Source: Ruminococcus flavefaciens
Lineage (GTDB): Bacteria; Bacteroidota; Bacteroidia; Bacteroidales; P3
Assembly (NCBI GenBank): GCA_023667315.1
Contig: JAMPAI010000002.1
Coordinates: 124,001 to 188,000, forward strand
DNA length: 64,000 nt
Direction of reading: 5' to 3'
Below the pieces are notes generated by a model. It ran no database searches. It was not told the origin of the DNA and saw only the letters and a list, made by a program, of their open reading frames with translations. Positions 1 through 59,664 of this stretch are shown here, piece by piece. The position numbers and the translations under genes were made by a program. Position 1 is the first letter of the stretch; each line of letters begins with the position of its first letter.

Positions 1-924
1 TGGCTCGAACTGCCCTACCGCCGGCTGCCGGGCTTCAAGAAGGTGGAACACAACGACGTGATCGTGTTCAACTTTCCCGACGGAGACACGGTTTCGAGCG
101 TCTATCAGAGCAACATCAGCTACAACACGCTGGTTAAGGAAGTGGGCCGGCAGCGGGTATGGAACGACAGGCACGCCTTCGGCCGCATCACCTACCGCCC
201 CGTGGACAAGCGCGAGAATTTCGTAAAGCGCTGCATCGGCCTGCCGGGCGATACGGTAAGGATCGTTGACCGCCAGGTGTTCATCAACGGCAAGATGGCC
301 GAGAACCCGGCCAACCTGCAGTTCAACTACCGTGTGCTGCCTTCGCCTGCGGTGGTGGGCAACCGCACCTGGAAAGAACTCGGGGTGTCGAACGACGACC
401 TCAAGATGCTCTTTCATCCCGACTACGGCTCGGTGCCCCTTACCTCCGAAATGGTTAAGAAACTGGAATCGGTGCCGGGCGTGGAAAGCGTTCAGGCGCT
501 GATAGAACCCGAAGGCCTGGGCGACGGACGGCTGTTTCCCTACAGCCCCAAAGACTACGCCTGGAACGTGGACAACTACGGGCCTGTCTATATTCCCGCC
601 AAGGGCGACACCCTGTACTTAGACGCGCAAAACATCGCGCTCTACAAACGGCTCATCACGATTTACGAGAACAACACGCTCGAAATCCTCTCTAACAGCA
701 CCTTCCGCATCAACGGCACGGAAACCGACACCTACGTGTGCAAAATGGACTACTATTGGGCCATGGGCGACAACCGCCACAATTCCGCCGACTCCCGCTT
801 CTGGGGTTTCGTGCCCGAGGACCACATGGTGGGCAAGGCGTTCTTCGTATGGTTCTCCTGGAATAAGGATGGGGTTGGGATGAAAAAGGTGCGCTGGAAC
901 AAGTTGATGCGGGTCATTAAGTAA
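1..924 (+). CDS. lepB: Signal peptidase I, 5'-truncated by window edge
   Basis: Membrane-bound serine protease that removes signal peptides from exported preproteins. The reading frame is open from base 1, so the N-terminal membrane anchor and the catalytic Ser box lie outside the window; 307 residues are visible. The box containing the catalytic lysine is present as [11 protein letters not shown] (Lys codon 226-228), and the C-terminal box is [15 protein letters not shown] followed by VP. About 130 residues separate lysine and C-terminal boxes, a long insertion of the kind seen in Bacteroidota LepB proteins. The stop codon is followed directly by a nested palindromic element. Identification is firm; the start cannot be seen. 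Confidence 0.95.
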
Positions 925-1047
925 AAATCGATTTGGCGGCGGTCTGCCGCGTTGGAAGGTCAAGCTTAACTCGGTCACGTACGAAAGTACGCTCCCTCGC
1001 AAGCTTGGCCTTCCGCCTTGCATCCCATCCGCCAAATCGATTTTTAC
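921..1047. repeat. Nested palindromic element, copy 1 (complete)
   Basis: Outer arms 921-939 and 1029-1047 are a perfect 19-bp inverted repeat. Inner arms 954-967 and 1001-1014 are inverted with one mismatch. Between them (968-1000) lies the core, which on the minus strand reads GAGGGAGC, then a GTAC-TTTC-GTAC mini-hairpin, then GTGACCGAG. It begins at the lepB stop codon and could also act as its transcription end. The same core occurs in other copies with unrelated arms. Confidence 0.9.
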
Positions 1048-1333
1048 CCCTTCGATTTTACAACATTCATCCACCAATCGATTTTGTACTCTTGCTTTAA
1101 AAGATTTGCCGCGGGAAGGCCAGGCTTAACTCGGTCACGTACAATTAATTTTCCAAGGTAATATATTAAAAGCAAAAGTGCAAGTACCGAAAACTATTGC
1201 TTTTATAAAATTCCTTACCTTCGCGTCATAAAAAGCTTTGATTTTGTTTGTCAAATATCGTTTAACAACCAAAAACACAGCATATTATTTGTAAAAATAA
1301 CTAACAAAATATTTTAACCAAACAAATTATCTC
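1048..1333. other. Non-coding gap with element remnants
   Basis: No convincing ORF. A fragment of the palindromic element (inner arm plus half core, ending CTCGGTCACGTAC) lies at 1108-1142, and an arm-like piece with ATCGATTTT lies near 1077-1086. The rest is AT-rich leader sequence for the lipoprotein gene. A weak TACCTTCG (1216-1223) resembles a -7 box but lacks a well-spaced -33. Confidence 0.6.
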
Positions 1334-2386
1334 ATGAAAAAGATTTTTTCTTTGTGGGTTGCGCCCGTCTTGATGGCAGGCCTGCTCTTTTCTTGCAAAC
1401 CCGAGCAATCGGAATTAAGCATTGATTCTTTACCTGGAACAGCTACCGTTATCGGTAAAGTGGAGTACAATCCCGGCGTAAGCCAGGAAAACGGCGCCGT
1501 TATTTACGACAAGAAACTTCCTGCCGCAGGCCGCACGGTTCTTGTTAAAGTCAATATGAGCGAGTTTACCAACAGTTCCTCAGAAGAAAACGAAAGTTTC
1601 CGCACTTTCCAGGCCACTACCGATGCCCAGGGTCGCTATTCGGTTCAGGTACCGGTAGGATTCCAGCCCGTCAGCGCCCGCGTTACGGCCGTATCCTTTA
1701 TTGGAAACAAAACAGCCGAAGATGCCGAGGGCAACATCATCACGATCGAAAACGCTGTATTCAATGTTGTTGACTATGAAAGGGTAACCCTCGAAGACCA
1801 GTGCATTGCGGAAGCCAACCTCCTGATGGTCAGCGAAACCGAACAGGACGATGTGGTTTACAACCAAAAGGTAAACCTGAAAGGTTCCGTTTTTGCCGCG
1901 AAAGAAGTCCGCGACAACGAAGAAGACATGTTGGACATCGAACTGTCGGCCTATGCGACGAACCTCATCGCCCGCGTGGAAATAACGAACGGTTACGAAG
2001 TTCTTTCTTCCTTGAAGTACGATATTTCTTCCAATGCCAAGGGTGAATACAGCCTGGACATGATGCTTCCCAACAACTGCTGGAACAATGGCAACAGCAT
2101 TCGTGTAAAGGTGAGCAAGGAAATTTCGATGGATGAAAACTTCAAGCACTACTACCGCGAAGTGGGCGGCGACTGGCGCACCCAAACCATTAAGGTTTTC
2201 TACGGTGGCGAATATTCCTACGTATCTTCCGCCATCTCCGAACAGCACAAGTTCGTGCCGGTGGATATGCCTGCCTTGGAACTGTATCCCACAGCGGCCG
2301 AACCCGAAAAGGTTCACGGTATCGGCAGGGAAATCGATGAAGACGCCGAAGAAGAAATCGAAGTGAACAATCCCTTCAATTGGTAA
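1334..2386 (+). CDS. Surface or periplasmic lipoprotein, unknown function
   Basis: 350 residues with a lipoprotein signal peptide: Lys-Lys, a hydrophobic stretch, then a lipobox LLFSC with the lipidated Cys near residue 21. The body looks all-beta, with two segments of carboxypeptidase-regulatory or Ig-like character (around TTDAQGRYSVQVP and SSNAKGEYSLDMML), and it ends in a very acidic tail rich in Asp/Glu. I do not recognise a catalytic motif. It precedes an outer-membrane barrel gene by 39 bp in the same direction, so the two probably form an operon and may act together at the outer membrane; that is inference from position. The ATG follows a long AT-rich leader. Confidence 0.75.
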   Translation: MKKIFSLWVAPVLMAGLLFSCKPEQSELSIDSLPGTATVIGKVEYNPGVSQENGAVIYDKKLPAAGRTVLVKVNMSEFTNSSSEENESFRTFQATTDAQGRYSVQVPVGFQPVSARVTAVSFIGNKTAEDAEGNIITIENAVFNVVDYERVTLEDQCIAEANLLMVSETEQDDVVYNQKVNLKGSVFAAKEVRDNEEDMLDIELSAYATNLIARVEITNGYEVLSSLKYDISSNAKGEYSLDMMLPNNCWNNGNSIRVKVSKEISMDENFKHYYREVGGDWRTQTIKVFYGGEYSYVSSAISEQHKFVPVDMPALELYPTAAEPEKVHGIGREIDEDAEEEIEVNNPFNW

Positions 2387-2425
2387 TCCATACTTCCGCT
2401 TCACTAATTTTAAATTGCACTTATC

Positions 2426-3394
2426 ATGAAGTATCAACACATAATACTCTCTGTCCTGTTGGCGGGGCTGTTCTTGGGAACGCAAGCCGTACAGGCACAG
2501 GAAAGCGGAAACGAGGGTACCGAACAGACGGCCCAAAAGGCTAAAAAGAGAAACTGGTCGCCCGAAGAATTCCTGCCCCAGGCCGGCGATTTTGCGTTCA
2601 GCATCAACGCCAACCCCTTCGTGAACTTTGTAGGGAACATGTTCAACCGCAGCACCAACAACCGCATCGACAATACCCAGATCGGCGGTCAGTCTTACAT
2701 CGCCCCTATGGTATCCCTGGCGGGTAAATACATGATTACCGACCACTTCGGCGTACGGCTCAATGTGGGCTGGATTTACTCCTACCAGAACACCGGCTTC
2801 TACACGCGCGACGATGCGGCTTTCTTCAACAACCCGCTCTCACACCAAAAGGTAAAGGACCGCTATGCCTATACCAATGCCGGCGGCAGCTTTAACGGTG
2901 CAGTCGAATACCGTATCGGCAACCGCCGTATCCAGGGCGTTGTGGGCGGCGGCCTGATTTATGCCTTTACCGTTCAGCGCGAACGTTTCACCTACGGAAA
3001 CGCCATTACCGAACTGAACCCCAATCCCTCCACTGCGCTTACGGAATATCAGGAACCCATTTCCAGCCTGGACGGCTTTATGGGTCAGCGCTGCCTTTCG
3101 CGCTATCAGGGAAATCCCACACACCACTTGGGTCTGATGGGCTTCGTAGGGTTCGAGTGGTTCCTCTGCCCCTGGTTCTCCTTAGGCGCGGAAGTAAACG
3201 TATCCGCCCTGTACAACTGGTCGCAGGAAGTTTACGAAGAAGTGGAAGGCTTCAACACCCTGACCGGCCAACGGGAAAAATGGACGGAGCTGATCAGCCC
3301 CCGTTCGCACGGCGTGAACTTCGGAACCGGAAATATCGGCGCCAACCTCACGCTGACCTTCTACTTTAACAGAAACAGCAACAGCACGTATTAA
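2426..3394 (+). CDS. Outer-membrane beta-barrel protein
   Basis: 322 residues with a Sec signal peptide (MKYQHIILSVLLAGLFLGTQ, cleavage probably after AVQA-QE). After a charged linker the sequence shows alternating aromatic/polar strands and glycine-rich turns (FAFSINANPFVNFVGNMF, DHFGVRLNVGWIYSY, LTLTFYF near the end) typical of small Bacteroidota barrels. The last residues are FYFNRNSNSTY, so the terminal aromatic is present. No T9SS tail is seen. It follows the lipoprotein gene by 39 bp and has a clear terminator after it. Ligand and function are unknown. Confidence 0.8.
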   Translation: MKYQHIILSVLLAGLFLGTQAVQAQESGNEGTEQTAQKAKKRNWSPEEFLPQAGDFAFSINANPFVNFVGNMFNRSTNNRIDNTQIGGQSYIAPMVSLAGKYMITDHFGVRLNVGWIYSYQNTGFYTRDDAAFFNNPLSHQKVKDRYAYTNAGGSFNGAVEYRIGNRRIQGVVGGGLIYAFTVQRERFTYGNAITELNPNPSTALTEYQEPISSLDGFMGQRCLSRYQGNPTHHLGLMGFVGFEWFLCPWFSLGAEVNVSALYNWSQEVYEEVEGFNTLTGQREKWTELISPRSHGVNFGTGNIGANLTLTFYFNRNSNSTY

Positions 3395-3424
3395 GCGCTC
3401 TATTGTTTTTAGTTTTGGTGTCGG

Positions 3425-3454
3425 GCCGCTCTGCGAATGCAGGGCGGCTTTTTT
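3425..3454 (+). terminator. Rho-independent terminator of barrel gene
   Basis: GC-rich hairpin GCCGCTCTGC-GAAT-GCAGGGCGGC followed by TTTTTT, 30 bp after the barrel stop codon. Confidence 0.85.
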
Positions 3455-3513
3455 GTAAAAATCGATTTGGCAGCGGTCTGCCGCGTTGGAAGGCCAAGTT
3501 TAACTCGGTCACG
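3455..3513. repeat. Partial palindromic element (left half of copy-1 type)
   Basis: Starts GTAAAAATCGATTTGGC and runs through the inner arm GGAAGGCCAAG to CTCGGTCACG. It matches 921-976 closely, differing at only a few positions, and breaks off inside the core. It abuts the terminator on the left and copy 2 on the right. Confidence 0.85.
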
Positions 3514-3530
3514 GATAAATCAAGGAAAAA

Positions 3531-3653
3531 AGCGTTCTGAATGGTGAGCTGCAAGGCGGGTACTTTCGGGATGCGCGGGAGCGTACTTTAGTACGTGACC
3601 AAGCAGCACGAAAGTGCCCAACGCAGCAGATCACCGTTCAGAACGCTTTTTTT
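3531..3653. repeat. Nested palindromic element, copy 2, forms tamB 3' end
   Basis: Outer arms 3531-3552 and 3626-3647 (AGCGTTCTGAAYGGTGA type) and inner arms 3558-3568 and 3609-3619 (GGGTACTTTCG / CGAAAGTGCCC) enclose the core CGGGAGCGTACTTTAGTACGTGACCAAG (about 3575-3603). The arms are unrelated to copy 1 but the core is the same. The right arm contains the last tamB codons and its TGA stop. Confidence 0.88.
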
Positions 3654-6600
3654 GCCGGATTTCGCGATTCTTTTGTCGTTCCACCCTCCTCTCCTCCCTG
3701 CTCAGCCTCGGCGAAGTCCCGTGCAGGAACTCCTGCGCGTTGTCGAAATCGCGCTGGAACACGATACTTACGCCCTGGGTGTAGGAATTGACGGGCTTGG
3801 TAAGGTCTTCGTCGTTGGAATGATTGAAGCCGCGCAGGCGCAGTTCTTCGGTGAACTTCCATTCGATATCCACGTCGCCCACCACGGTGGTGGCGCTGGT
3901 TGAAGTTCCCGCCATATTGTCCGAGACCCCCACGTTGCCGTTGATCACCAGGCGGTCGTTGAACAGCTGCCCCGACATCATGACCTGAAATTCCGAATTG
4001 CTGGTGGTGCTGCCGGGCTTGTAGTTGATGCCCACGTTGAAATCGTTGCTGAGACGGGAAAGGAAGTTGTTGAACTGACTGAAGAGCATTTCGGAAGAAG
4101 AGGCCAGGGCGGAACTGCCCACCGAGGAGGAACTGCCGCTTTCCACCGCCATAAAGGAGTTGAACATCAACAGGGAGAAAGTCTGCTGCAGCATCTCGTC
4201 TTCGTTGTTCTTGCGCACCAGGGCCCAGAACTTGTCTTTGGTGTCGTCGTCGGCATTGAGCAGGTCGATATCGAACGAAATGTCCGGGTTGAGCAGGTTG
4301 CCCGACAAGGCGATGATGCTTTCCACATTCACCTTCTGCTTATAGCGGCTTTCATCGGGATCGAAAGCCGACAGAACCGGATACAGGCTGGCTTTGGTCT
4401 GATAGCCGGCCCGCACATCCACCCTCGGCTCGCCCGCGTTACCGAGCCAGGAAACCGTGCCGCCCTCCTTGATCTTGAACCTTTTGTTGAGCAGGTTCAC
4501 CATCGAGAAATCGAAGCCACCGCCGCTCACGGTATAGGTGCCGAAAATCTTGGGTTCATTGTCGTCCATAAACAGACGCAGCGAACCCTTTCCGGTCGCG
4601 GTAAGCAGGCCGTCCATCGCCGAGTTGCGCAACCTCACCGAAACGGCCAGGTCGGGAGTAACCTCCAGGTTGAAATCCAAGGTAAGCTTTCCTTTCCGTT
4701 GGAACGCCGCCCTGTTCCGCGCATAATATTGCTCCAAGGTCATGCGTCCACTATCGACGGCAAGCACGACAGGCGCCTTGAAGGTGATGAAGTTGGCACC
4801 GTCGCCGCCCGTGGGATTGGAAAAGTCGAAGGATATGTCCGAGTTTTCGTCTGTCCTGGCATTCAACTGCAGCACGATATCATCCACCGGCCCCTTGATG
4901 TCCAGCCGGCCGGTGGCGAACACCGTTCCCCAAAAGGGAAGATTCGCCTCGCGGGTGGTGCGCAAGGCCACCAGATTATTGAAACCCACCCCCATATCCA
5001 GCCGGATATCCTTGAAGTTACGGTGCGTGATATGGCCCCCGAACGTTCCTTCCGTATTGAACACCTCATCCACAAAAGGCACGGTGGCGAATTCGATGCG
5101 GGAAGAACTCAGTTTTATCGGCACCTTCTTGAACAGATAGCGGGTGCGCAGCATGGAAACGGTAAGCCCGAAGTTCTTGCAGGTAAGGTCGGCAAAGAGC
5201 TCGGGAGAACGCAAGGTGCCTCCCAGCCGGAGGTTCCCGCTCGCCTCTCCCGTAAGGTCCTTGGCCACCGACACCAATATCCTGTCTAGGAAATTAACGG
5301 GACAGTCCCGCGCGAAACCCTTGAAATCGATTGCCCCGTTCCGCTTCGGATAATAGCGGCCGTCTAAAAAGAGCAGTGTTTTCTTATCGTCCTGCAAGAT
5401 GTTGCAAGAGGCATGCACCTCGTCGTTCTTGCTGAACGAAGCCTCCACATTGCCCCGCCCGTAGAGCTTGTCGTTGATGGTAAGGTCTTTCATCATCAGG
5501 CGGGCGTTGAACATTTGGTTGCCGTAAAAATCACGCATTTCCGCGATGCCGTCCACCCGGGTCTCTATCTTCATGGGAATCTTGCGCAGGAAGAATTCCA
5601 GATACGAGAGGTCGAAATCGCTGAACCTGACTTTCAGTAGGGAGGCCGGGTCGCGCGAAACACTGCCCTCCACGCTCACCCCGTCGTTGGATTGCATGGA
5701 AAACATGCCCACATGGTAGATTTCCAGCCGTTGGGGCGCGAACAGCACATAGCCGTCCGAATAGCTCTTCCATTCCGTATTCCTGGTCTGCAGCCTGAAA
5801 TCCTGCAATTCCAGACGCATACCGCCTTCGGGCAGGAAGTGGAACAATCCGGCGAACCGCCCGTTCGTACTCTGCCGGGTAAGGCCGTCATTGCCCCAAG
5901 AAAGCCGGTAGGCCACCGTATTGGTGTCGCTCTTGTCCACGTTTACGGCAAAACGGTTCATGCTCACACTGTCGTTCAGATAGAATCGGTCGGCGGTCGT
6001 TTCAAGCCGCACGACACGGTCGTTCACCGCCAGGTCGAAATAACCGTCCAGATAGGCAAGGCTTCCCATCTGCACGTAAGGCACCGCCATCTGCATACGT
6101 CCCCTGTTCACTTCGGAAGCGTAGCGCAGGTTCAGTTTCATGCCCAAGGGCAGCGAAAGCGGCGGATAAAGGATACTCATCAAGGAGTCGGCATTGTTTA
6201 CGCGGACACGCAAATCGAAGTCCTGCGCCGAAACCTCCCTGCTCTCCAAATCGATATTCCGCGTAAGGCGGTTCCCCAGATGCGGCAGGCAGGACTGCAC
6301 GGTGTTCAGGAAAGAATACTTCAGATCGGCAAAACTCCATTGTCCGTTCAAGTCGACATCCATCAGACCCGAACGCAGCCACAGCGTCCTTTCCAGACTG
6401 TCTTTCGTAAGCACCTCCGCCTGCAGGTTGTTCAACAGGTAGGTTTGCGACAGCCGCCGTATTTCCGTGCCGTCGATACGCAGTTTTCCCTGCACGGACT
6501 CGCCCCGGCAATCGATATTGTCCAACACCACGTGCGTCTTGACGGTAAACTTGCCCGTATCCCCCAGCAGGCGCAAGGGCTGCAGGTCGATATTGCGCAT

Positions 6601-8175
6601 ATCCAGGTTGCAGTTCAACCACGACGTATCGTTTTTCTTCTGCCACTCTCCAAGCAGGTCGAAGTCGAAATTGGGGTCTGCGCATTCCACGTCGGCCCTG
6701 AGGAAATCGCGCTGCCAGTCTATATGGAAAGGAATCTCCTTCAGCACCTTGTCGTCTATCTCCAAATCGAAAACCCGGCCCTTGGCGTGGCAGTAAAGCG
6801 CCTCCTGATCCTGTCTGCTCAAGCGGAAACCGGCATCCACCGCCACCTTTCCGAACAGGCTGTCGTTATTGAATATTTTGTCCAAGCGGATATTCCTGGC
6901 CTGGATGTTCCCCGCCATGATGTCCATCCCGTTCGCCGTATCGCGGGCGGCGTTAGTGATCACGATATCCCCTATATCGGTGCAGAGTTCCAGATCGACC
7001 GCGAACTGCCGCTGCCCACCCGAAAAAGAGCCCTTGGCCTTGACCCAATGCAGCGACTGCAAGGCTTCCGGCAGCGCCAAGGGCTTGCCGTTGGGCAGCG
7101 TCACGCCTTTAAAGTCTTCGGTATTGAGGCGCAGGCCGTCGAGTTGCAGCTCCAAACGCCCGTCCTTCAGCTTGGGAATGCCCGCCAGCGTAAAATCGGC
7201 GTTCAGGAAAGTGTGCCGGCCCGTATGGAGCCGCAGCCCCTTCAGGTCCAAGTCATCCACCGTGCCGCTCACCTTGCCCTCCGCCTTTATCTTCTGCGGC
7301 ATTCCGGCAAACACCTGCGCAAAATAACCCAAGTCTGAGAGTGTTACTTCCGATGGACGCAGATCCGATTCCATCCGCACGTTATGGATAAAATCCTTGT
7401 ACAGCTGCCAGTCGGCGGCCGCAAGATGATAATCCAGGCGCACCGTACTGTATGGGGTCTTGACATAGGCGTCGTTAAAATGCAGTTCCCCTTTGTTCAG
7501 GTAAAGCGCGGTGGAGAAATCATCGACCCGAAAGCCCGTCTTTTCGGTGCATTCCACGTGCTGCACCTTGACCAGCACGATACCGCAGCGGCTGTAGAAA
7601 TCGGAGGCTTCGGCATACACCTTGCCCAATCCCACGTGTTTGTAGTCGATGATTCCCTCCGGCGAATGTTTGGCATCCTGCGCCTCGTAGGTAAAGGTTC
7701 CGTTAAAGATCCTGCCCTTCTCGATACGGAAAGGCTTGCGCAAGGCCGTGTCTTTCTTGGGCAGGGCGGCGATTTTCTTGATGACGCGCTTAAAGTCGGA
7801 AATCGTGTCGCCCTCGTACCGGGTAATGTGTATCTCGGGCTCGTACAGCGCGATGGAGGCCAGGGTAAGGTTCTTGAAGTCGTAGTTCTTGAGGGATGCC
7901 ATGGCCTCGGCGATAAACACGGTGCGGTTGTGGCGGTAATCGAACACCTCCACGTTGCGCAGCGTGGCCGAGCGTTTAAACAAGTTGAAATCCAGTTTTC
8001 CGACCCTTACCTCGCATTCCATGAACCCGGTGGCGAAACCGGCCGCCTTCTTGGCCAGAAAGCCCTGCACGGGCGAGGTGTGCAGCATGCCGCCTAAAAA
8101 GACAAGAAACAGCACCACACCGCCCAAGGTGTAGCCCGCTATCTTTCCCGTTTTCTTAAGCCACTTGCTTTTCAT
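3631..8175 (-). CDS. tamB: TamB-like translocation/assembly module protein (DUF490)
   Basis: About 1514 residues. An N-terminal membrane anchor (GYTLGGVVLFLVFLGGMLH) is followed by a very long repetitive beta-helical region and a C-terminal DUF490 domain (GTYTVSGGGFDFSMVNLLNK, then LNPDISFDIDLLNADDDTKD and a barrel-like end). Family members span the periplasm and assist outer-membrane protein insertion or phospholipid transport. I chose the ATG at 8175 (MKSKWLKKTGK) rather than an upstream GTG, because it sits directly before the anchor. The last four or five codons lie within the palindromic repeat arm, so the basic tail KKRSER is encoded by the element. It diverges from tsaD across 113 bp. 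Confidence 0.9.
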   Translation of the reverse strand: MKSKWLKKTGKIAGYTLGGVVLFLVFLGGMLHTSPVQGFLAKKAAGFATGFMECEVRVGKLDFNLFKRSATLRNVEVFDYRHNRTVFIAEAMASLKNYDFKNLTLASIALYEPEIHITRYEGDTISDFKRVIKKIAALPKKDTALRKPFRIEKGRIFNGTFTYEAQDAKHSPEGIIDYKHVGLGKVYAEASDFYSRCGIVLVKVQHVECTEKTGFRVDDFSTALYLNKGELHFNDAYVKTPYSTVRLDYHLAAADWQLYKDFIHNVRMESDLRPSEVTLSDLGYFAQVFAGMPQKIKAEGKVSGTVDDLDLKGLRLHTGRHTFLNADFTLAGIPKLKDGRLELQLDGLRLNTEDFKGVTLPNGKPLALPEALQSLHWVKAKGSFSGGQRQFAVDLELCTDIGDIVITNAARDTANGMDIMAGNIQARNIRLDKIFNNDSLFGKVAVDAGFRLSRQDQEALYCHAKGRVFDLEIDDKVLKEIPFHIDWQRDFLRADVECADPNFDFDLLGEWQKKNDTSWLNCNLDMRNIDLQPLRLLGDTGKFTVKTHVVLDNIDCRGESVQGKLRIDGTEIRRLSQTYLLNNLQAEVLTKDSLERTLWLRSGLMDVDLNGQWSFADLKYSFLNTVQSCLPHLGNRLTRNIDLESREVSAQDFDLRVRVNNADSLMSILYPPLSLPLGMKLNLRYASEVNRGRMQMAVPYVQMGSLAYLDGYFDLAVNDRVVRLETTADRFYLNDSVSMNRFAVNVDKSDTNTVAYRLSWGNDGLTRQSTNGRFAGLFHFLPEGGMRLELQDFRLQTRNTEWKSYSDGYVLFAPQRLEIYHVGMFSMQSNDGVSVEGSVSRDPASLLKVRFSDFDLSYLEFFLRKIPMKIETRVDGIAEMRDFYGNQMFNARLMMKDLTINDKLYGRGNVEASFSKNDEVHASCNILQDDKKTLLFLDGRYYPKRNGAIDFKGFARDCPVNFLDRILVSVAKDLTGEASGNLRLGGTLRSPELFADLTCKNFGLTVSMLRTRYLFKKVPIKLSSSRIEFATVPFVDEVFNTEGTFGGHITHRNFKDIRLDMGVGFNNLVALRTTREANLPFWGTVFATGRLDIKGPVDDIVLQLNARTDENSDISFDFSNPTGGDGANFITFKAPVVLAVDSGRMTLEQYYARNRAAFQRKGKLTLDFNLEVTPDLAVSVRLRNSAMDGLLTATGKGSLRLFMDDNEPKIFGTYTVSGGGFDFSMVNLLNKRFKIKEGGTVSWLGNAGEPRVDVRAGYQTKASLYPVLSAFDPDESRYKQKVNVESIIALSGNLLNPDISFDIDLLNADDDTKDKFWALVRKNNEDEMLQQTFSLLMFNSFMAVESGSSSSVGSSALASSSEMLFSQFNNFLSRLSNDFNVGINYKPGSTTSNSEFQVMMSGQLFNDRLVINGNVGVSDNMAGTSTSATTVVGDVDIEWKFTEELRLRGFNHSNDEDLTKPVNSYTQGVSIVFQRDFDNAQEFLHGTSPRLSREERRVERQKNREIRQKKRSER

Positions 8176-8185
8176 CCGTTTTGCG

Positions 8186-8193
8186 TAAATTTG
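8186..8193 (+). promoter_or_regulatory. -7 box of tsaD promoter
   Basis: TAAATTTG matches TAnnTTTG; it lies about 95 bp before the tsaD start in the divergent gap. No good -33 is seen. Confidence 0.4.
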
Positions 8194-8227
8194 CCGCCCT
8201 GCCGTTTGGACAGGACACGACACCTTG

Positions 8228-19534: not shown

Positions 19535-19579
19535 GTACCGAATGATTTTTGCACTCTTGCGGGTGCTTAAAAAATAATA

Positions 19580-19636
19580 GGCTTTCAGAAAGTGCCCGGA
19601 TGCAGTAACGAAGCAGACGGGGGCTTTCTGGAAGCC
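19580..19636. repeat. Core-less copy of the palindromic element
   Basis: Consists only of the two outer arms of the neighbouring copy 3 (GGCTTTCAGAAAGTGCCCGG... and ...CGGGGGCTTTCTGGAAGCC) joined by AGTAACGA. The inner arms and core are absent, as in a precise internal deletion, or the state before the core was gained. Confidence 0.85.
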
Positions 19637-19655
19637 GTAAACATCTAAAACCTAA

Positions 19656-19774
19656 GGCTTTCAGAAAGTGCCCGGATGCGAGGCTTTGCCTTGCAAAGTT
19701 GAGGGAGCTTACTTTTGTAAGTGACCGAATCTTTGCAAGGCTGTAACGAAGCAGACGGGGGCTTTCTGGAAGCC
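19656..19774. repeat. Nested palindromic element, copy 3 (complete)
   Basis: Outer arms 19656-19679 and 19751-19774 (about 20 of 24 paired), perfect inner arms GCCTTGCAAAG / CTTTGCAAGGC (19688-19698, 19731-19741) and the core TTGAGGGAGC-TTAC-TTTT-GTAA-GTGACCGA (19699-19730). The mini-hairpin has TTAC/GTAA instead of GTAC/GTAC, a compensatory change that keeps pairing. Confidence 0.9.
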
Positions 19775-19792
19775 GTAAAACCTATAATTGCC

Positions 19793-28964: not shown

Positions 28965-30443
28965 ATGACCTTAGACGACATCAAAACCTTAATCGCTTCC
29001 GGCGAATCGAGAACGCTGGAACTTAAAAAGACCACCGGGGAGTTGAAAGACGGCATGCACACCGCCTGCGCTTTCCTTAACTCCGACGGCGGCTGGCTTA
29101 TTTTCGGTGTCGTGCCCAAATCGATGAAAATCGTTGGCCAGGAAGTGTCGGACAACACCCAACGGGAAATCGCACAGGCCCTGGCCGGTCTTGAACCCGC
29201 CGTATATATTCCGGTCGAATACATAGAGGTTCCCGACCATCCCGGCCACAAGGTCATCGCCATGTATTTCGACGGATGGAAATGGGGCGAGCAACCCCGC
29301 ACATACCTCGGCAGGCCCTATTACAAACTGGAAAGCACCACCAAGGCCATGCCGCGCGAAATGTTCGACAAACGGGTCCGCGAACACACGCCCCAACGTT
29401 TCGAATGGGAAAAACAGGCGGCGGAAAACATCGCTGTCGGCGACTTGAATGCCGACCGCATCCGGGGTGCCGTTCACCTCGGTGTGGACGGAGGCCGGCT
29501 GCCGGTTTCCGCCATCACCGACCCCATCAGCGAAGTACTGGATAAATTGGAACTGTTATCCGACAACAGACCCAACAACGCCGCCGCCCTGCTGTTCACC
29601 ACAGACCCCCGCCACTATCTGCAATTCCGCTTGCGGCTGGCCCGTTTTCTCGGCACGGACAAAAACGAATTTATCGACAACCAACAGGCAGAAGGCAATT
29701 TCTTCGACCTGCTGGATGCGGGAATGGCGTTTTTCTTCAAACACCTTTCGCTGAGCGGCAAGATTTCGGGCCTGATGCGCGAAGAACACCTTGAAATACC
29801 CCAGACCGCACTCCGCGAGGCGTTGATCAACGCCCTCTGCCACCGGCAATGGGAACGCCATAACCTTACCATCGGAATCGCCATATACGACGACCGTATC
29901 GAAATCAGCAACCCCGGCGTATTCCCGCCCGAAATAACACCGGAAAGTATCAAGCTGCCCCACGATTCCTACCCCTACAACCCCACCTTGGCCAAAGTGC
30001 TCTACAGAACCACCTTTCTTGAAAACTGGGGTTCGGGGGCAAAACGGATCATAAAGGCGTGCCGCGAACAGAATGTTCCGGAGCCCGAATGGAGCGTTAG
30101 CGGCAGCTTCATTACCGTTACCTTTAAACGGCTTGTTTCCAGCCAACAAGGAGGTGTCCAAAATCCGAATGTCGGTAAAAATGTCGGTAAAAATGTCGGT
30201 AAAAATGTCGGTAAAAATGTCGGTAAAAATGTCGGTAAAAATGTCGGTAAAGAACTAACTTCCCGACAGGAAAGGATTTTAACGTTGGTTAAGGGAAATC
30301 CTTCCGTGAGCATTGCGGAAATGGCAAAGATCATAGGCGTTACCACCCGCACCATCGAACGCGAGATCCCGGCCATGGCGGAGGTTCTGCACCACGTCGG
30401 GCCCAAGAACGGCGGTTACTGGGAAGTGACGGAAAACCGATAG
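28965..30443 (+). CDS. AlbA_2/Schlafen-type ATP-binding transcriptional regulator
   Basis: 492 residues. The N-terminal AlbA_2 domain (about 1-125; SGESRTLELKKTTGELKD, ACAFLNSDGGWLIFGV) is of the bacterial Schlafen-like kind with nucleic-acid or nucleotide-binding proposals. A GHKL-like ATPase domain lies at about 255-385 (ALREALINALCHRQW, YDDRIEISNPGVFP). The C-terminus is a winged helix (SVSIAEMAKIIGVTTRTIERE). Between ATPase and winged helix are seven NVGK repeats encoded by a perfect 12-bp tandem repeat. Such proteins are usually accessory regulators; the target is unknown. It lies between the two paralogous T9SS cargo genes, divergent from one and convergent with the other. Confidence 0.87.
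   Translation: MTLDDIKTLIASGESRTLELKKTTGELKDGMHTACAFLNSDGGWLIFGVVPKSMKIVGQEVSDNTQREIAQALAGLEPAVYIPVEYIEVPDHPGHKVIAMYFDGWKWGEQPRTYLGRPYYKLESTTKAMPREMFDKRVREHTPQRFEWEKQAAENIAVGDLNADRIRGAVHLGVDGGRLPVSAITDPISEVLDKLELLSDNRPNNAAALLFTTDPRHYLQFRLRLARFLGTDKNEFIDNQQAEGNFFDLLDAGMAFFFKHLSLSGKISGLMREEHLEIPQTALREALINALCHRQWERHNLTIGIAIYDDRIEISNPGVFPPEITPESIKLPHDSYPYNPTLAKVLYRTTFLENWGSGAKRIIKACREQNVPEPEWSVSGSFITVTFKRLVSSQQGGVQNPNVGKNVGKNVGKNVGKNVGKNVGKNVGKELTSRQERILTLVKGNPSVSIAEMAKIIGVTTRTIEREIPAMAEVLHHVGPKNGGYWEVTENR
30168..30251 (+). repeat. 12-bp tandem repeat, seven units, coding NVGK
   Basis: AATGTCGGTAAA repeated seven times without a mismatch, in frame inside the AlbA-type gene. Gain or loss of units keeps the frame and changes only linker length. 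Confidence 0.97.
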
Positions 30444-47136: not shown

Positions 47137-47844
47137 TTATTTTCCCATTATTTTTTTTTTAGCAGCAGTCTTGGCAGCAGTGGCTTTGGCGGCCACTTTC
47201 TTGATACCGGCCTTTACCGCCTTTTCGGCTTTCTTGCCGGCTTTCACCGCTTTCTTGCTTTCGGCTTTCAAGACCTTTTCGGCTTTCTTGCCGGCCTTCA
47301 CCGCCTTGGCTACCGTTTTCTTGCTTTCGGCTTTCAGAACCTTTTCGGCTTTCTTGCCGGCCTTCACCGCCTTGGCTACCGTTTTCTTACCTTCGGCTTT
47401 CAGAACCTTTTCGGCTTTCTTGCCAGCCTTCACCGCCTTGGCTACCGTTTTCTTGCCTTCGGCTTTCAAGACCTTTTCGGCTTTCTTGCCGGCCTTCACC
47501 GCCTTCTTAACCGTCTTTTCGGCCTTGGCCTTCAAGGTTTTGGCAGCAGGCTTCGCGGCCTTTACCGCCTTCTTGGCCGTAGCCTTTACAGCGGGTTTGG
47601 CAGCCTTTACGGTTTTCTTGGCCGTGGCTTTCGTTGCCGTTGTTTTCGCGGCGGCTTTCTTGGCCGTGGCCTTTACAGCGGGCTTGGCGGCAACCTTCTT
47701 GGTTGCGGTTTTCTTGGCAGCCGGTTTAGCCGCAGCCTTGGCCGCGGTTTTCTTGGCAGCAGTTTTTGCAGCGGGCTTGGCAGCTGCTTTCTTTGCGGCG
47801 GGCTTGGCAGCCGTCTTCACCGCAGCTTTCTGAGTCTTAGCCAT
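47137..47844 (-). CDS. Histone H1-like / AlgP-like Lys-Ala repeat protein
   Basis: 235 residues, almost entirely Lys, Ala, Val and Thr. N-terminal half: irregular KPAAKKA units. C-terminal half: about four copies of a 22-residue repeat [13 protein letters not shown](G/S)KKTVAKAV (DNA about 47210-47510). The composition matches H1-like nucleoid proteins of Chlamydia, Bordetella and Bacteroidota, which bind DNA non-specifically through their basic tails. It overlaps udk by 8 bp (ATGGCTAA) and purL follows, so it is embedded in a housekeeping operon. A run of ten As near its stop makes the exact C-terminus (AAKKKIMGK) prone to slippage. Tandem repeats may vary in number between strains. Confidence 0.88.
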
Positions 47845-51932: not shown

Positions 51933-52008
51933 AAAAAACGCGTTCCAGTACGTGACCAAGCTCCTCTACGGCGTTCAGCGAAGCAGATTGCCGCCCAAAA
52001 CGTTTTTT
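51933..52008. repeat. Palindromic-element half-copy, left flank of the GNAT module
   Basis: Holds the right half of the core (CCAGTACGTGACCAAG) and a right arm GCGAAGCAGATTGCCGCCCAAAACG followed by Ts. It is about 90% identical in direct orientation to 52814-52890. Confidence 0.85.
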
Positions 52009-52238: not shown

Positions 52239-52790
52239 ATGGAAGCCCAGAATTTCTTTTCCGATTATCACATTCAAAAACTTGAAAACGGGAAAATGGT
52301 GTCCGCATTTGATTGCGGGGACGATGATTTGAACGACTTTCTGATTAATGACGCTCCATTATATCATAACGCCCTTTTAGCCACAACTTATATCTTGCAG
52401 AATAAAACAAGCGGAAAAACAATCGCCTACTTCAGCGTTGCCAACGACCGTATTTCGATTGATGACTTTCCGAACAATACCGAATTCAATAGGTTCAGAA
52501 AAAACAAATTCGTTAACGACAAACGGATGAAAAGCTATCCGGCGATAAAGATCTGCCGTTTGGGTATCGATAAATCCATGCAGGGAAAACAGATTGGCAC
52601 TTTCCTAATTGACTTTATTGAAACACTATTTATTACCAACAATAAATCAGGATGCCGCTTTCTTTCGGTGGATGCTTATCAACAAGCGATTCCTTTCTAT
52701 CAGAAAAACGATTTCGAATTTCTCTGTTCTTCCGACAGGCAACAAAGAACCCGCTTAATGTTCTTCGACCTAAGTGACCTCTTGGACTAA
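52239..52790 (+). CDS. GNAT acetyltransferase, candidate toxin
   Basis: 183 residues. The opening FDCGDDDLNDFL resembles the FxCGxxxLDxFL start of TacT/AtaT-type toxins that acetylate aminoacyl-tRNA. The acetyl-CoA site is ICRLGIDKSMQGKQIGTFLI, where the usual QGxGIG reads QGKQIG, a Gly-to-Gln change. The end has VDAYQQAIPFYQKNDFEFL, a typical GNAT beta-bulge/aromatic region with the Tyr that often acts as general acid. Clearly AT-rich against the GC-rich surroundings, suggesting acquisition by transfer. It forms a two-gene unit with the 51-residue gene and is bracketed by direct repeats. Confidence 0.8.
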   Translation: MEAQNFFSDYHIQKLENGKMVSAFDCGDDDLNDFLINDAPLYHNALLATTYILQNKTSGKTIAYFSVANDRISIDDFPNNTEFNRFRKNKFVNDKRMKSYPAIKICRLGIDKSMQGKQIGTFLIDFIETLFITNNKSGCRFLSVDAYQQAIPFYQKNDFEFLCSSDRQQRTRLMFFDLSDLLD

Positions 52791-52813: not shown

Positions 52814-52890
52814 AAAAAACACACTCCAGTACGTGACCAAGCCCCCTACGGCATTCAGCGAAGCAGATTGCCGCCCAAAACGTTTTTTTT
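52814..52890. repeat. Palindromic-element half-copy, right flank of the GNAT module
   Basis: Direct repeat of 51933-52008, including CCAGTACGTGACCAAGC and AGCGAAGCAGATTGCCGCCC. Its terminal T run forms the sequence upstream of the sodB -7 box. Confidence 0.85.
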
Positions 52891-57810: not shown

Positions 57811-59214
57811 TTATCTTACCATTACCTTATAACTGTTCCTGCCTATCCTTACAATATACAGGCCGCCGTTCCGCACCGGGATGACCGTGGCACGACCGCT
57901 GTAGAGGCATTGGCCGAGCGCGTTATACACCTGCACTTCGCCTCTGTAAGCCGACAGATGGATAACGCGATCTTGCGCATACACGCGGAAACTGTCTTTA
58001 TCGGGCTCTTCGTTGTCCACGCCGCCCGATATCTTCTCGAAGTTGGCTGTCAGTTTCAGATTCTCCGTTACCCTAAACGTGTGCGTTGCCTCCGTGCTGA
58101 ACACCGTACCCTCGGCTTTCGTCCAGTTCACGAAACGGTAGCCCGATTTCGGAGTGGCGGTAACGGTGGCTTCCGAGCCTTCCTCGTACGTACCGTTTCC
58201 GGTAATCGAGGCCGTACCCCATTCCATGTTGTTGGACGCCACGCGAACCATGCGGTAGTTCTCGGTTTTCTCAAACACCGAAACACCCCAGGTAAAACTT
58301 ACGGTTTTGCCCAAAAAAGAGTTCTCCAAAACCAACCGATATGAAAGCGGCTCCTCGAATTGAAACACAAACTCGTTTTCTGTCCAATAGCCGAAAGGCA
58401 ACTCGTTGCCGTTCACATCCAACACCTTGTAAGTTGAAGTATTCTGGCCTAAAATCCACTCCGAAGACAAATCAAAAGGCTGATTAACGGATAGGGTGAC
58501 AGCATCAAACTGATTGGCATTAAACAAAGACCAAGATGGATGTTGACTATATACCTCATACAAGCGGGCAAGAGGTATCCTGTTTCCGCCGCAATCCAAA
58601 TGCCTCAAGACCGTGCAGCCACTCACATCCAGACTCGTCAATTGATTGCTGTTGCAATACAAAGTCGTCAAGGCTGTGCAGCCCCTCACGTCCAGACTCG
58701 TCAATTGATTGCTGTTGCAATACAAAGTCGTCAAGGCCGTGCAACCGCTTACGTCCAAACCCGTCAACTGATTGTATTGACAATTCAAATCCGTCAAGGC
58801 TGTGTAGCCCCTCACGTCCAGACTCGTCAATCGATTTTCGCCACAAGACAAATTCGTCAAAGCGGTACAGCCCCTCACGTCCAGACTCGTCAACTGATTG
58901 TCGTAACAAGTCAAAGTCGTCAAAGCCGTGCAACCGCTTACGTCCAAACCCGTCAACTGATTGTCGTAACAAGTCAAAGTCGTCAAAGCCGTGCAACCGC
59001 TTACGTCCAAACCCGTCAACTGATTGTCGTAACAAGTCAAAGTCGTCAAGGCCGTGCAGCCGCTCACGTCTAAACTCGTTACATCATTATTCTTCTGAAA
59101 GAGTCTCGAGCAATTAAACTCCAAAATCCGGGGCGCATCGCTGCCGCTTTCCTGCGCCTGCAGCGAGCATAGGCTCAGGGCGATGGCCGCCAGGCCAATC
59201 CATAGTCTTTTCAT
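57811..59214 (-). CDS. T9SS-secreted leucine-rich-repeat protein
   Basis: 467 residues from the ATG at 59214 (MKRLWIGLAAIALSLCSLQA, signal peptide). Eight 21-residue repeats of the form LTSLDVSGCTALTTLTCYDNQ (residues 45-212) form a BspA-like or internalin-like solenoid. Next comes a beta-rich region, then an InlB-type B-repeat (GTASITGNGTYEEGSEATVT...GYRFVNWTKAEG), and a short type A T9SS sorting domain (FRVYAQDRVIHLSAYRGEVQ...GLYIVRIGRNSYKVMVR). A surface-bound adhesin is likely. A start 18 bp further upstream is possible. Confidence 0.87.
   Translation of the reverse strand: MKRLWIGLAAIALSLCSLQAQESGSDAPRILEFNCSRLFQKNNDVTSLDVSGCTALTTLTCYDNQLTGLDVSGCTALTTLTCYDNQLTGLDVSGCTALTTLTCYDNQLTSLDVRGCTALTNLSCGENRLTSLDVRGYTALTDLNCQYNQLTGLDVSGCTALTTLYCNSNQLTSLDVRGCTALTTLYCNSNQLTSLDVSGCTVLRHLDCGGNRIPLARLYEVYSQHPSWSLFNANQFDAVTLSVNQPFDLSSEWILGQNTSTYKVLDVNGNELPFGYWTENEFVFQFEEPLSYRLVLENSFLGKTVSFTWGVSVFEKTENYRMVRVASNNMEWGTASITGNGTYEEGSEATVTATPKSGYRFVNWTKAEGTVFSTEATHTFRVTENLKLTANFEKISGGVDNEEPDKDSFRVYAQDRVIHLSAYRGEVQVYNALGQCLYSGRATVIPVRNGGLYIVRIGRNSYKVMVR
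58579..59082 (-). repeat. 63-bp coding tandem repeat, eight units
   Basis: Encodes the LRR array. Several neighbouring units are identical or nearly so at DNA level (CCCGTCAACTGATTGTCGTA recurs on the plus strand), so the number may change by recombination. Not CRISPR: no spacers, and continuous coding. Confidence 0.93.
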
Positions 59215-59664
59215 TATCTTGTTGTATTTCATTTTATTCTCCTTGTTTTACAGGAATACATTCCCTGCATCAGGCCGCTACAAATATAGTATAATTTAAA
59301 TTTTATCGATATATGAATGTTTTTAGAACGAAAAGTAAAATTTATATTATTATAATTTTGCCAACGCGCAGGATGCTGCCAACGCACGTGGCAAAGCCAC
59401 AGACCCATGCGCGAAGGCAAGGCTCTCGCTGAAATTATAATAATATAAATTTTACTTTGGAAATGTGCGGGTCGTCGAGGGAGTTTTCGGAGTTATCCAG
59501 GGAAAGCCATCCAAAACAAAAAAACGAAAGTTCGTAAATTTTTGAGAGTGTCGCCAGATAAATTTGCCTGAATTTAAATTTTATCGTAACTTGCAGGATA
59601 AACGAAAGAGATGGTGGCTGGCGATGTTATTCCTCAACACCATTCCATTTAAAGCTTGACGCCT
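59215..59664. other. AT-rich gap with a nested palindrome
   Basis: Holds the inverted repeat at 59332-59458. The rest (59215-59331 and 59459-59664) is AT-rich leader of the LRR and RhuM genes; no gene seen. Confidence 0.6.
59332..59458. repeat. Nested palindrome with 27-bp perfect arms, different core
   Basis: Outer arms 59332-59358 and 59432-59458 (AAAGTAAAATTTATATTATT...) pair perfectly over 27 bp. Inner arms TTGCCAACGCGCA / TGCGCGAAGGCAA are mostly paired. The centre has a GTGGC-AAA-GCCAC mini-hairpin flanked by ACGCAC. Same three-level architecture as the other elements but with another core. Confidence 0.88.

Follow-up and report, generated by a model that had tools for sequence, protein, structure and literature searches.

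Background

ERIC sequences have been known and used for typing for more than 30 years, and are described as elements of enteric bacteria and Vibrio. Dispersed extragenic palindromes at gene ends are also known as REP/BIME, and a folded hairpin following the stop codon of a gene in fixed orientation is the form of the attC sites, which are used by a site-specific recombinase. The ERICs of Yersinia, as De Gregorio and colleagues reportedly described in 2005, have a preferred orientation beside stop codons. The MITE review PMC10969869, in its part on ERIC, gives the Enterobacteriaceae and the Vibrionaceae as hosts, and the relevant passages of Delihas 2007 (PMC2229807) hold the orientation of ERIC to be crucial for its effect on transcripts. 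A literature search for ERIC outside enterics retrieved none described there, as judged by title or by the start of the abstract. The core string of the elements reported here, searched in published texts, gave no related paper among the matches listed, as judged by title.

The present analysis concerns nested hairpins in a stretch of 64,000 nucleotides of a Bacteroidales genome, hereafter called the window. With a probability that we place at about three in four, these elements are Bacteroidales members of the non-autonomous, MITE-like ERIC (IRU) family, which would then not be confined to enterobacteria. The best reading of the data is a cross-phylum ERIC superfamily, combining a conserved hairpin module with lineage-specific ends. 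ERIC itself being already known, what is new is its kind in an unexpected host range and the specificity of its ends to each lineage.

Results and discussion

Nested hairpins of the window and their copies in the genus

Three complete nested hairpins of about 125 bp are present in the window. Its incomplete copies are two 3' halves, two with an internal deletion, and one short derivative. Copy 1 (917..1044, minus strand; core 971-996, minus strand) scores 108.6 bits with the broader of our covariance models, R2, and the stop codon of the ORF 43-924, a Peptidase_S26 according to Pfam, overlaps with its 3' end. The 3' half of an older copy lies at 1100..1142 (minus strand), 103 nt 5' of the copy 1 core and in the same orientation, and another 3' half, at 3455..3513 (minus strand), shows 95% identity to copy 1 over 59 nt. 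Copy 2 (3528..3657, plus strand; core 3577-3602, plus strand) scores 113.2 bits with R2; the ORF 3631-8223 on the minus strand (TamB, Pfam) terminates within its 3' arm, and the element supplies the last codons of this ORF. Copy 3 (19655..19782, plus strand; core 19703-19728, plus strand; 88.9 bits with R2) is flanked by tRNA-Cys and a YqeY gene and is therefore an exception to the placement at gene ends described below; TTAC/GTAA replaces GTAC/GTAC in its core, with pairing preserved. In tandem to it, the short derivative 19578..19640 (plus strand), which consists of outer arms without inner hairpin and core, is missing from the close relative G004. The two internally deleted copies (51933..52008 and 52814..52890, both plus strand) each join a piece of the 5' outer arm to an intact 3' half, without the middle; they are 85% alike over 61 nt and also break the gene-end rule. 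The complete palindromes, their conserved core, the two-sided change in the core of copy 3 and the four fragments had all been pointed out in an initial annotation of the window, and are recovered here.

The two internally deleted copies enclose an ORF that Pfam assigns to the GNAT acetyltransferases (52239-52790); a small ORF immediately precedes it, and the two ORFs look like a toxin-antitoxin pair. The window also holds tandem direct repeats at 58520-59142 (63 nt), 47180-47620 (66 nt) and 30156-30263 (12 nt), and, at 59332-59458, an A+T-rich, perfect 27-nt inverted repeat with arms 73 nt apart.

In the window's own genome (G000; 2.93 Mb, 88 contigs), the 26-nt core pattern GGGAGCKTACTNNNGTAMGTGACCRA, with at most 1 mismatch, has 31 matches against 0 for the reversed pattern, and a looser 18-mer with at most 3 mismatches has 42 against 7 for its control; the window elements are therefore not a product of chance. 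The dispersal of the core, first noticed within the window, extends in this way to the whole genome, where the copies are mostly intergenic, some overlapping a called ORF. Within the genus, the core pattern was found in 9 of the 13 genomes searched, G000 included. The initial annotation had also considered identity with an Rfam family; at the gathering threshold no family fits the window elements, the sole match in the window being a tRNA.

Conserved fold and covariation

Folded alone, full copies adopt nearly one shape, the exceptions being truncated or rearranged, for instance the first L012 copy, L028 and L007 minus. From an outer stem with about 20 pairs, the structure leads to a 2x2 loop with G.A and A.G and then to TGC/GCA; these are followed by an asymmetric loop AAGGC / AACGC(A), by an inner stem of variable sequence and by small 2x2 loops; the tip is made of GG/CC, tandem G.A, a six-pair apex and a tetraloop TNNN. 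The conserved hairpin domain can be written TGCAAGGC ... GGGAGC-NTAC-NNNN-GTAN-GTGACC ... AACGCNGCAGA, with connecting stems that are variable but paired.

Covariation was evaluated on an alignment (A1) of 38 of 54 copies, built by sequence only, the 16 omitted copies being truncated, rearranged or, in part, just unchosen. RNAalifold gave 39 pairs for A1, 30 of which have double compensatory changes. In this structure 91.2% of cells are paired, where shuffles give 70.3%; double changes are found in 303 cells (93 in shuffles), and the covariation score is 0.564, against 0.181 in shuffles and a maximum of 0.169 in slid versions. Of 500 shuffles, 0 came up to any of the observed values. The co-variation of the arms proposed from the window copies is thereby borne out. 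The additional claim that these arms are mutually unrelated needs correction: the outer arm has a recognisable consensus across the genus, from which it diverges largely by paired changes, and copy 1 and the half at 3455..3513 are nearly identical over their 59 common nucleotides. The mismatched pair formed by the bases that immediately precede GGGAGC and follow GTGACC also co-varies (A/G in 25 and C/A in 13 of the 38 rows), and over all loci reads A/G 142, C/A 33, T/G 17 and C/G 12 times, and more rarely A/T 6, A/A 5, T/A 2 and G/G 1; subfamily history may be a partial cause of this covariation.

Strand-specific folding was also considered, from an excess of G.T over A.C that amounted to 125 against 21 in a first count over the RNAalifold pairs (34 of 38 rows against 2). 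The claim was dropped because columns 15, 18, 19 and 54 carry most of the excess, and because a symmetric test on 229 copies from ten groups gave 89 against 70 (65 copies against 47; p=0.11), with the reverse in P. somerae (7 against 24).

Homology with ERIC

The covariance model R1 was trained on the window's genus only and has 129 positions; its E-values, as those of R2, are rough. It scores an E. coli ERIC, which was not in the training set, at 61.1 bits (E=1.8e-13) and a Rahnella ERIC at 65.8 bits (E=9e-14), and covers both end to end. The E. coli copy (L172:1498-1621) is that of strain ER1709, located between hsdM and hsdR; its apex reads GGGAGCGTAC-AGAA-GTACGTGACC, and it matches both printed ERIC primers (ERIC1R and ERIC2) at 3 mismatches. 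At the central palindrome, where the primer sites lie, this copy and those of the genus have an equal apex. The Rahnella copy aligns to DNA of 5375 of 5426 E. coli genomes. Since a model trained on the genus alone recovers the ERICs of E. coli and Rahnella, and the E. coli copy has the apex and fits the primers, the window elements and ERIC form one family as defined by sequence and predicted structure. For the same reason, the claim that no described family has this architecture is not supported; the interpretation offered with it stands as far as a dispersed, structured, non-coding element is concerned, with target duplications in the related lineage of P. somerae, but not for the novelty of the architecture.

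The elements share with ERIC / IRU / RU-1 a length of about 127 bp, the palindromic fold, the apex GGAGC-NTAC-NNNN-GTAN-GTGAC, the flanking loops AAGGC and AACGC, dispersed intergenic copies and proximity to stop codons; unlike them, they occur in Bacteroidales and other phyla and have outer arms that vary by lineage. When the element-bearing loci were searched against Rfam at a lax threshold, only tRNAs, a weak miRNA match and V_AS5 (RF02818) were obtained, the latter for the E. coli copy, over all 129 positions at 44.9 bits, against a gathering score of 96; V_AS5 (Vibrio RNA AS5) may itself be an ERIC copy. Some of the palindromic candidate RNAs of Bacteroidetes in the HMP2 set (palindromes of 80-132 bp; PMC8040213), compared by description only, may also be the element of the window, and the passages of that article on these candidates make no link with ERIC.

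Distribution across phyla

A scan of genome contigs for the core alone returned at least 111 stretches. Among the matches listed, the core-bearing taxa include Porphyromonas, Tannerella, Bacteroides-named MAGs, Desulfobacterales, Deltaproteobacteria, Verrucomicrobia, Lentisphaeria, Coriobacteriales, Sporosarcina, Lysinibacillus, Psychrobacillus and Rahnella. R1 scores 96 of 100 listed stretches at E<=1e-5, and the remaining 11 of 11 as well, all of them containing the core by construction; L070, L107 and L122 have the core alone (25-26 bits) and L136 little beyond it (29.6).

Copies were counted with R1 (E<=0.001) in 16 genomes chosen for having a match. The counts were 69, 51 and 22 in Porphyromonas somerae, P. 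uenonis and P. levii, 22 in a Lentimicrobiaceae MAG, 12 in Dysgonomonas, 3 in Victivallales, 148 in the Verrucomicrobia MAG GWC2_42_7 (1.3 Mb), at least 150 in the Deltaproteobacteria MAG WY2.bin34 (3.2 Mb; 150 of 150 scored, out of 1374 candidates), 50 in Desulfobacterales, 47 in Sandaracinaceae, 31 in Rahnella, 16 in Bacteriovoracia, 10 in Sporosarcina, 6 in Lysinibacillus, 6 in Coriobacteriales and 2 in Psychrobacillus. Contamination of MAGs does not explain this spread, since several of the matching genomes are those of isolates. A survey with R2 on evenly drawn samples (strict filters, 8 candidates scored per genome, E<=1e-5, centre genomes counted) found matches in 38 of 395 genomes in the window's phylum; the figures were 92 of 398 in the phylum of Rahnella and 35 of 398 in that of Lysinibacillus. 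Twenty survey matches were re-examined: 15 have both modules TGCAAGGC and AACGCNGCA with at most 1 mismatch, a combination present in 5 of 1000 shuffles, and 13 of these 15 have a recognisable apex; among the other five, one (L448) reads as an ordinary ERIC. The host range given for ERIC, which is descriptive and not structural, does not extend to these relatives, found in other phyla.

From their flanks, copies of Planococcaceae (L080, L082, L134, L067, L155, L161 and L171) and of Coriobacteriales (L063) lie immediately upstream of 16S/5S rRNA or tRNA genes. Three predicted viral contigs (IMG/VR; L367, L368 and L369) also carry the element, at 58, 86 and 34.5 bits respectively.

Placement and orientation at gene ends

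Gene context was called beside each copy with an ORF heuristic (>=90 aa) and ARAGORN for tRNAs; in G000 and G004, only copies that match the core pattern and have flanks of sufficient length entered the sample. The 3' end of a gene faces the 3' end of the element in 16 of 21 copies of G000 and 19 of 24 of G004 (18 of 23 and 19 of 25 in an earlier run with other limits). It abuts the element in 15 of 21 (within -20..+3 nt) and 15 of 24 (within -20..+6). For non-coding points of G004 taken at random, the proportion facing and within 6 nt is 2.3%. The 5' side is faced by a gene in 12 of 21 and 8 of 24 copies, respectively, and never from within 15 nt. This preference is observed in several other lineages. 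In the Deltaproteobacteria MAG (27 of 30 loci, 22 classifiable), 16 of 22 copies are faced by a gene 3' end, all 16 within -11..+5, with 10 genes facing the 5' side at 13 to 1035 nt. Rahnella (29 of 30 loci, 28 classifiable) has 19 of 28 facing and 12 of 28 within -25..+3, the 5' side being also close (20 facing, 3 to 79 nt), and Bacillota (7 of 8 loci) has 6 of 7 facing, 5 of them within -13..+17. Other members of the genus have 11 of 21 copies facing, 8 close. The orientation next to stop codons in G000, G004 and Rahnella is like that reported for ERIC.

As a counterpoint to the ERIC reading, certain groups follow the gene-end rule only weakly or not at all. The mixed phyla have 15 of 21 copies facing, 8 close (5' side: 13 facing, 2 close). 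In P. somerae 14 of 18 copies face a gene 3' end, yet 2 are close; other Porphyromonas have 7 of 8, 2 close. The two copies of Desulfobacterales are both facing, but at 16 and 68 nt. The Tannerella group (3 of 6 facing, 0 close; 6 of 6 facing on the 5' side) and the copies of Planococcaceae depart from the rule, and there is no facing gene in Bacillales (0 of 3) or in a second Deltaproteobacteria group (0 of 2). Where the rule holds, the transcript of the abutting gene includes the complement of the GTGACC strand, and in our reading of the junctions the element now and then contributes the final base of the stop codon.

Ends of the elements and candidate mover

Target duplications are seen in one lineage. 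The copies of P. somerae, which end with GAGAMTGTTGCACGAAGG ... CCTTCGTGCAACAGTCTC, have identical flanking 5-mers in 7 of 18 cases at one fixed offset pair (next best offset: 2); two short-form copies show a 5-mer match at another offset, and further matches are visible by eye with slightly shifted ends. Table 2 of PMC4596501 gives GAGACTGTTGCA as the left terminus of both ISPg4 (IS5 family) and MITEPgRS/MITE464 of P. gingivalis. The copies of P. somerae end with GAGACTGTTGCA / TGCAACAGTCTC, equal or nearly equal to these, and GAGACTGTTGCA occurs 157 times in this genome with at most 1 mismatch, against 3 for a control. This likeness concerns the ends of the P. somerae copies only, the window's genus having other ends. 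A minimal element of P. somerae (L361) has both ends about 36 bp apart, the hairpin being nearly all gone. Two PF01609 transposase matches were found in P. somerae, neither with fitting ends, and a search of plasmids for the P. somerae element gave no match.

Ends differ in several lineages: AGGCTGG...CCAGCCT in the Deltaproteobacteria MAG, approximately TACCC...GGGTA in Rahnella ERIC and a start in GGTGTGT in Tannerella. These differences support one inner domain carried on different ends. No target duplication of 3 bp or more stands out in G000, G004 or the Deltaproteobacteria MAG, and the scan had 0 anchored copies to work with in the sets of Verrucomicrobia and P. uenonis. ERIC is characterised by a TA target duplication and, according to Table 1 of PMC2229807, by TA termini; in the window's genus, TA at both ends (8 of 27 copies in G000, 6 of 24 in G004) is no commoner than the AT control (7 of 27 and 7 of 24).

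The mover search in G000 was made with the PF01797 profile only and gave 0 matches, while 5 of 14 control genomes were positive. The linked REP-associated transposase suggested in the initial annotation is thus absent by this profile, and a link with a REP/BIME system and its RAYT (Y1) transposase was rejected; unlike REP/BIME, the elements are moreover about 125 bp long, with nested loops.

Turnover between close relatives

G004 is 95-97% identical to G000 beside one copy, and the majority of the G000 sites that could be anchored in G004 are shared with this degree of identity. Among eight orthologous sites aligned, two have the element in common. At one, flanks and outer arms are kept and the whole inner hairpin is swapped for that of the neighbouring tandem copy; at one, the inner hairpin is lost in G004 between CAG repeats; at one, the element is gone in G004, leaving apparent end remnants; one has a different element, and another has none in G004; at the last, window copy 3 is single in G004, with an extra short one in G000. 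No clean empty site is shown by these eight alignments, nor is a coreless host palindrome, so that the earlier proposal of a copying into existing palindromes receives no support.

A search with half-models over 1.56 Mb of G004 plus the window (E<=0.01) returned 11 3'-only halves, 2 5'-only halves and 38 full pairs. In a hand-edited list of 14 halves (one tiny hairpin removed; window 1100-1142 and a match at E=0.012 added), 8 have on their 3' side, at most 200 nt away, an intact copy that points the same way; on their 5' side, 0 do. Either fresh copies insert beside the gene, or just the gene-proximal copy is retained.

Proposed mechanism and alternative explanations

With the elements read as members of the ERIC family, a resident transposase would move them in trans through their outer arms, and insertion would be targeted to gene ends in one orientation, or would survive there. 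In G000 the inserted hairpin would form the 3' end of the abutting transcript, and the inner domain would be under selection in a folded, single-stranded form, as RNA or DNA, separately from the ends; the conserved centre is not explained by transposition alone. The negative results for a transposase with fitting ends and, in the window's genus, for TA ends, target duplications and a clean empty site also weigh against this reading. A more ambitious scheme, which we regard as possible rather than probable, is that one hairpin domain, of common descent in Bacteroidota, Pseudomonadota and Bacillota at the least, behaves as a selfish unit in its own right. This unit would keep its inner loops and tandem-G.A apex and swap its outer arms to suit the transposase of the host (in Porphyromonas IS5-type, with 5-bp duplications; in enterics TA-type; other types in other hosts). 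In several lineages it would have been inserted repeatedly at stop codons, in one orientation, with the newest copy proximal to the gene; ERIC would be its enterobacterial branch.

The elements could alternatively be a conserved structured RNA or terminator at gene 3' ends, functional in each lineage and not, or no longer, mobile, which spread long ago or by recombination. Such a role fits their placement at stop codons, the A-runs and T-runs that frame many copies in the window's genus, the conservation of most anchored sites between G000 and G004 and the fact that the copy left intact beside 8 of the 14 decayed halves is the gene-proximal one. It is nevertheless unlikely in view of the uneven occurrence within the genus (9 of 13 genomes), of the 150 positive candidates out of 150 scored in a single MAG and of the target duplications of P. 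somerae; in addition, the Deltaproteobacteria copies have no T-run at their ends, and a terminator scan of positions 800-3800 flagged neither element there, its loop limit being such that long hairpins would be missed.

We give little credit to a copying mediated by RNA, in which an RNA of the GTGACC strand would be reverse-transcribed into a nick after the stop codon. The 3' end and orientation fixed at stop codons and the excess of 3'-only over 5'-only halves (11 against 2) would follow from it as fixed 3' ends and 5'-truncated copies, but several 3'-only halves belong to tandem arrays explained by decay or recombination, two of the window 'halves' retain a 5' end, and the duplications of P. 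somerae are associated with IS5-type ends. A relation with attC-like recombination sites, the gene being moved by a site-specific recombinase, is hardly plausible: here the apex and inner loops are conserved and not the ends, and the genes beside copies 1 and 2 (signal peptidase and TamB) are not cassette-like, even if placement and orientation follow a logic similar to that of attC, with the abutting gene read into the complement of the GTGACC strand. As improbable is a convergence of unrelated hairpins on a similar shape, for although long hairpins earn some covariance-model score by shape alone and 5 of the 20 survey matches do not have the two modules together at one mismatch, the sequences of a 24-nt apex and of two distant loops are in agreement between phyla, both modules occur together in just 5 of 1000 shuffles and E. 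coli ERIC, outside the training set, is found at E=1.8e-13.

Conclusions

If ERIC is a single branch of a family that spans phyla and whose ends can be exchanged, then the centre of the element must be its selected part. If such a family is real, its mover would also become testable, the ends of the Porphyromonas copies pointing to a transposase of the IS5 family (ISPg4-type). The orientation rule at gene ends would provide a second handle, on targeting or on the 3' ends of mRNAs.
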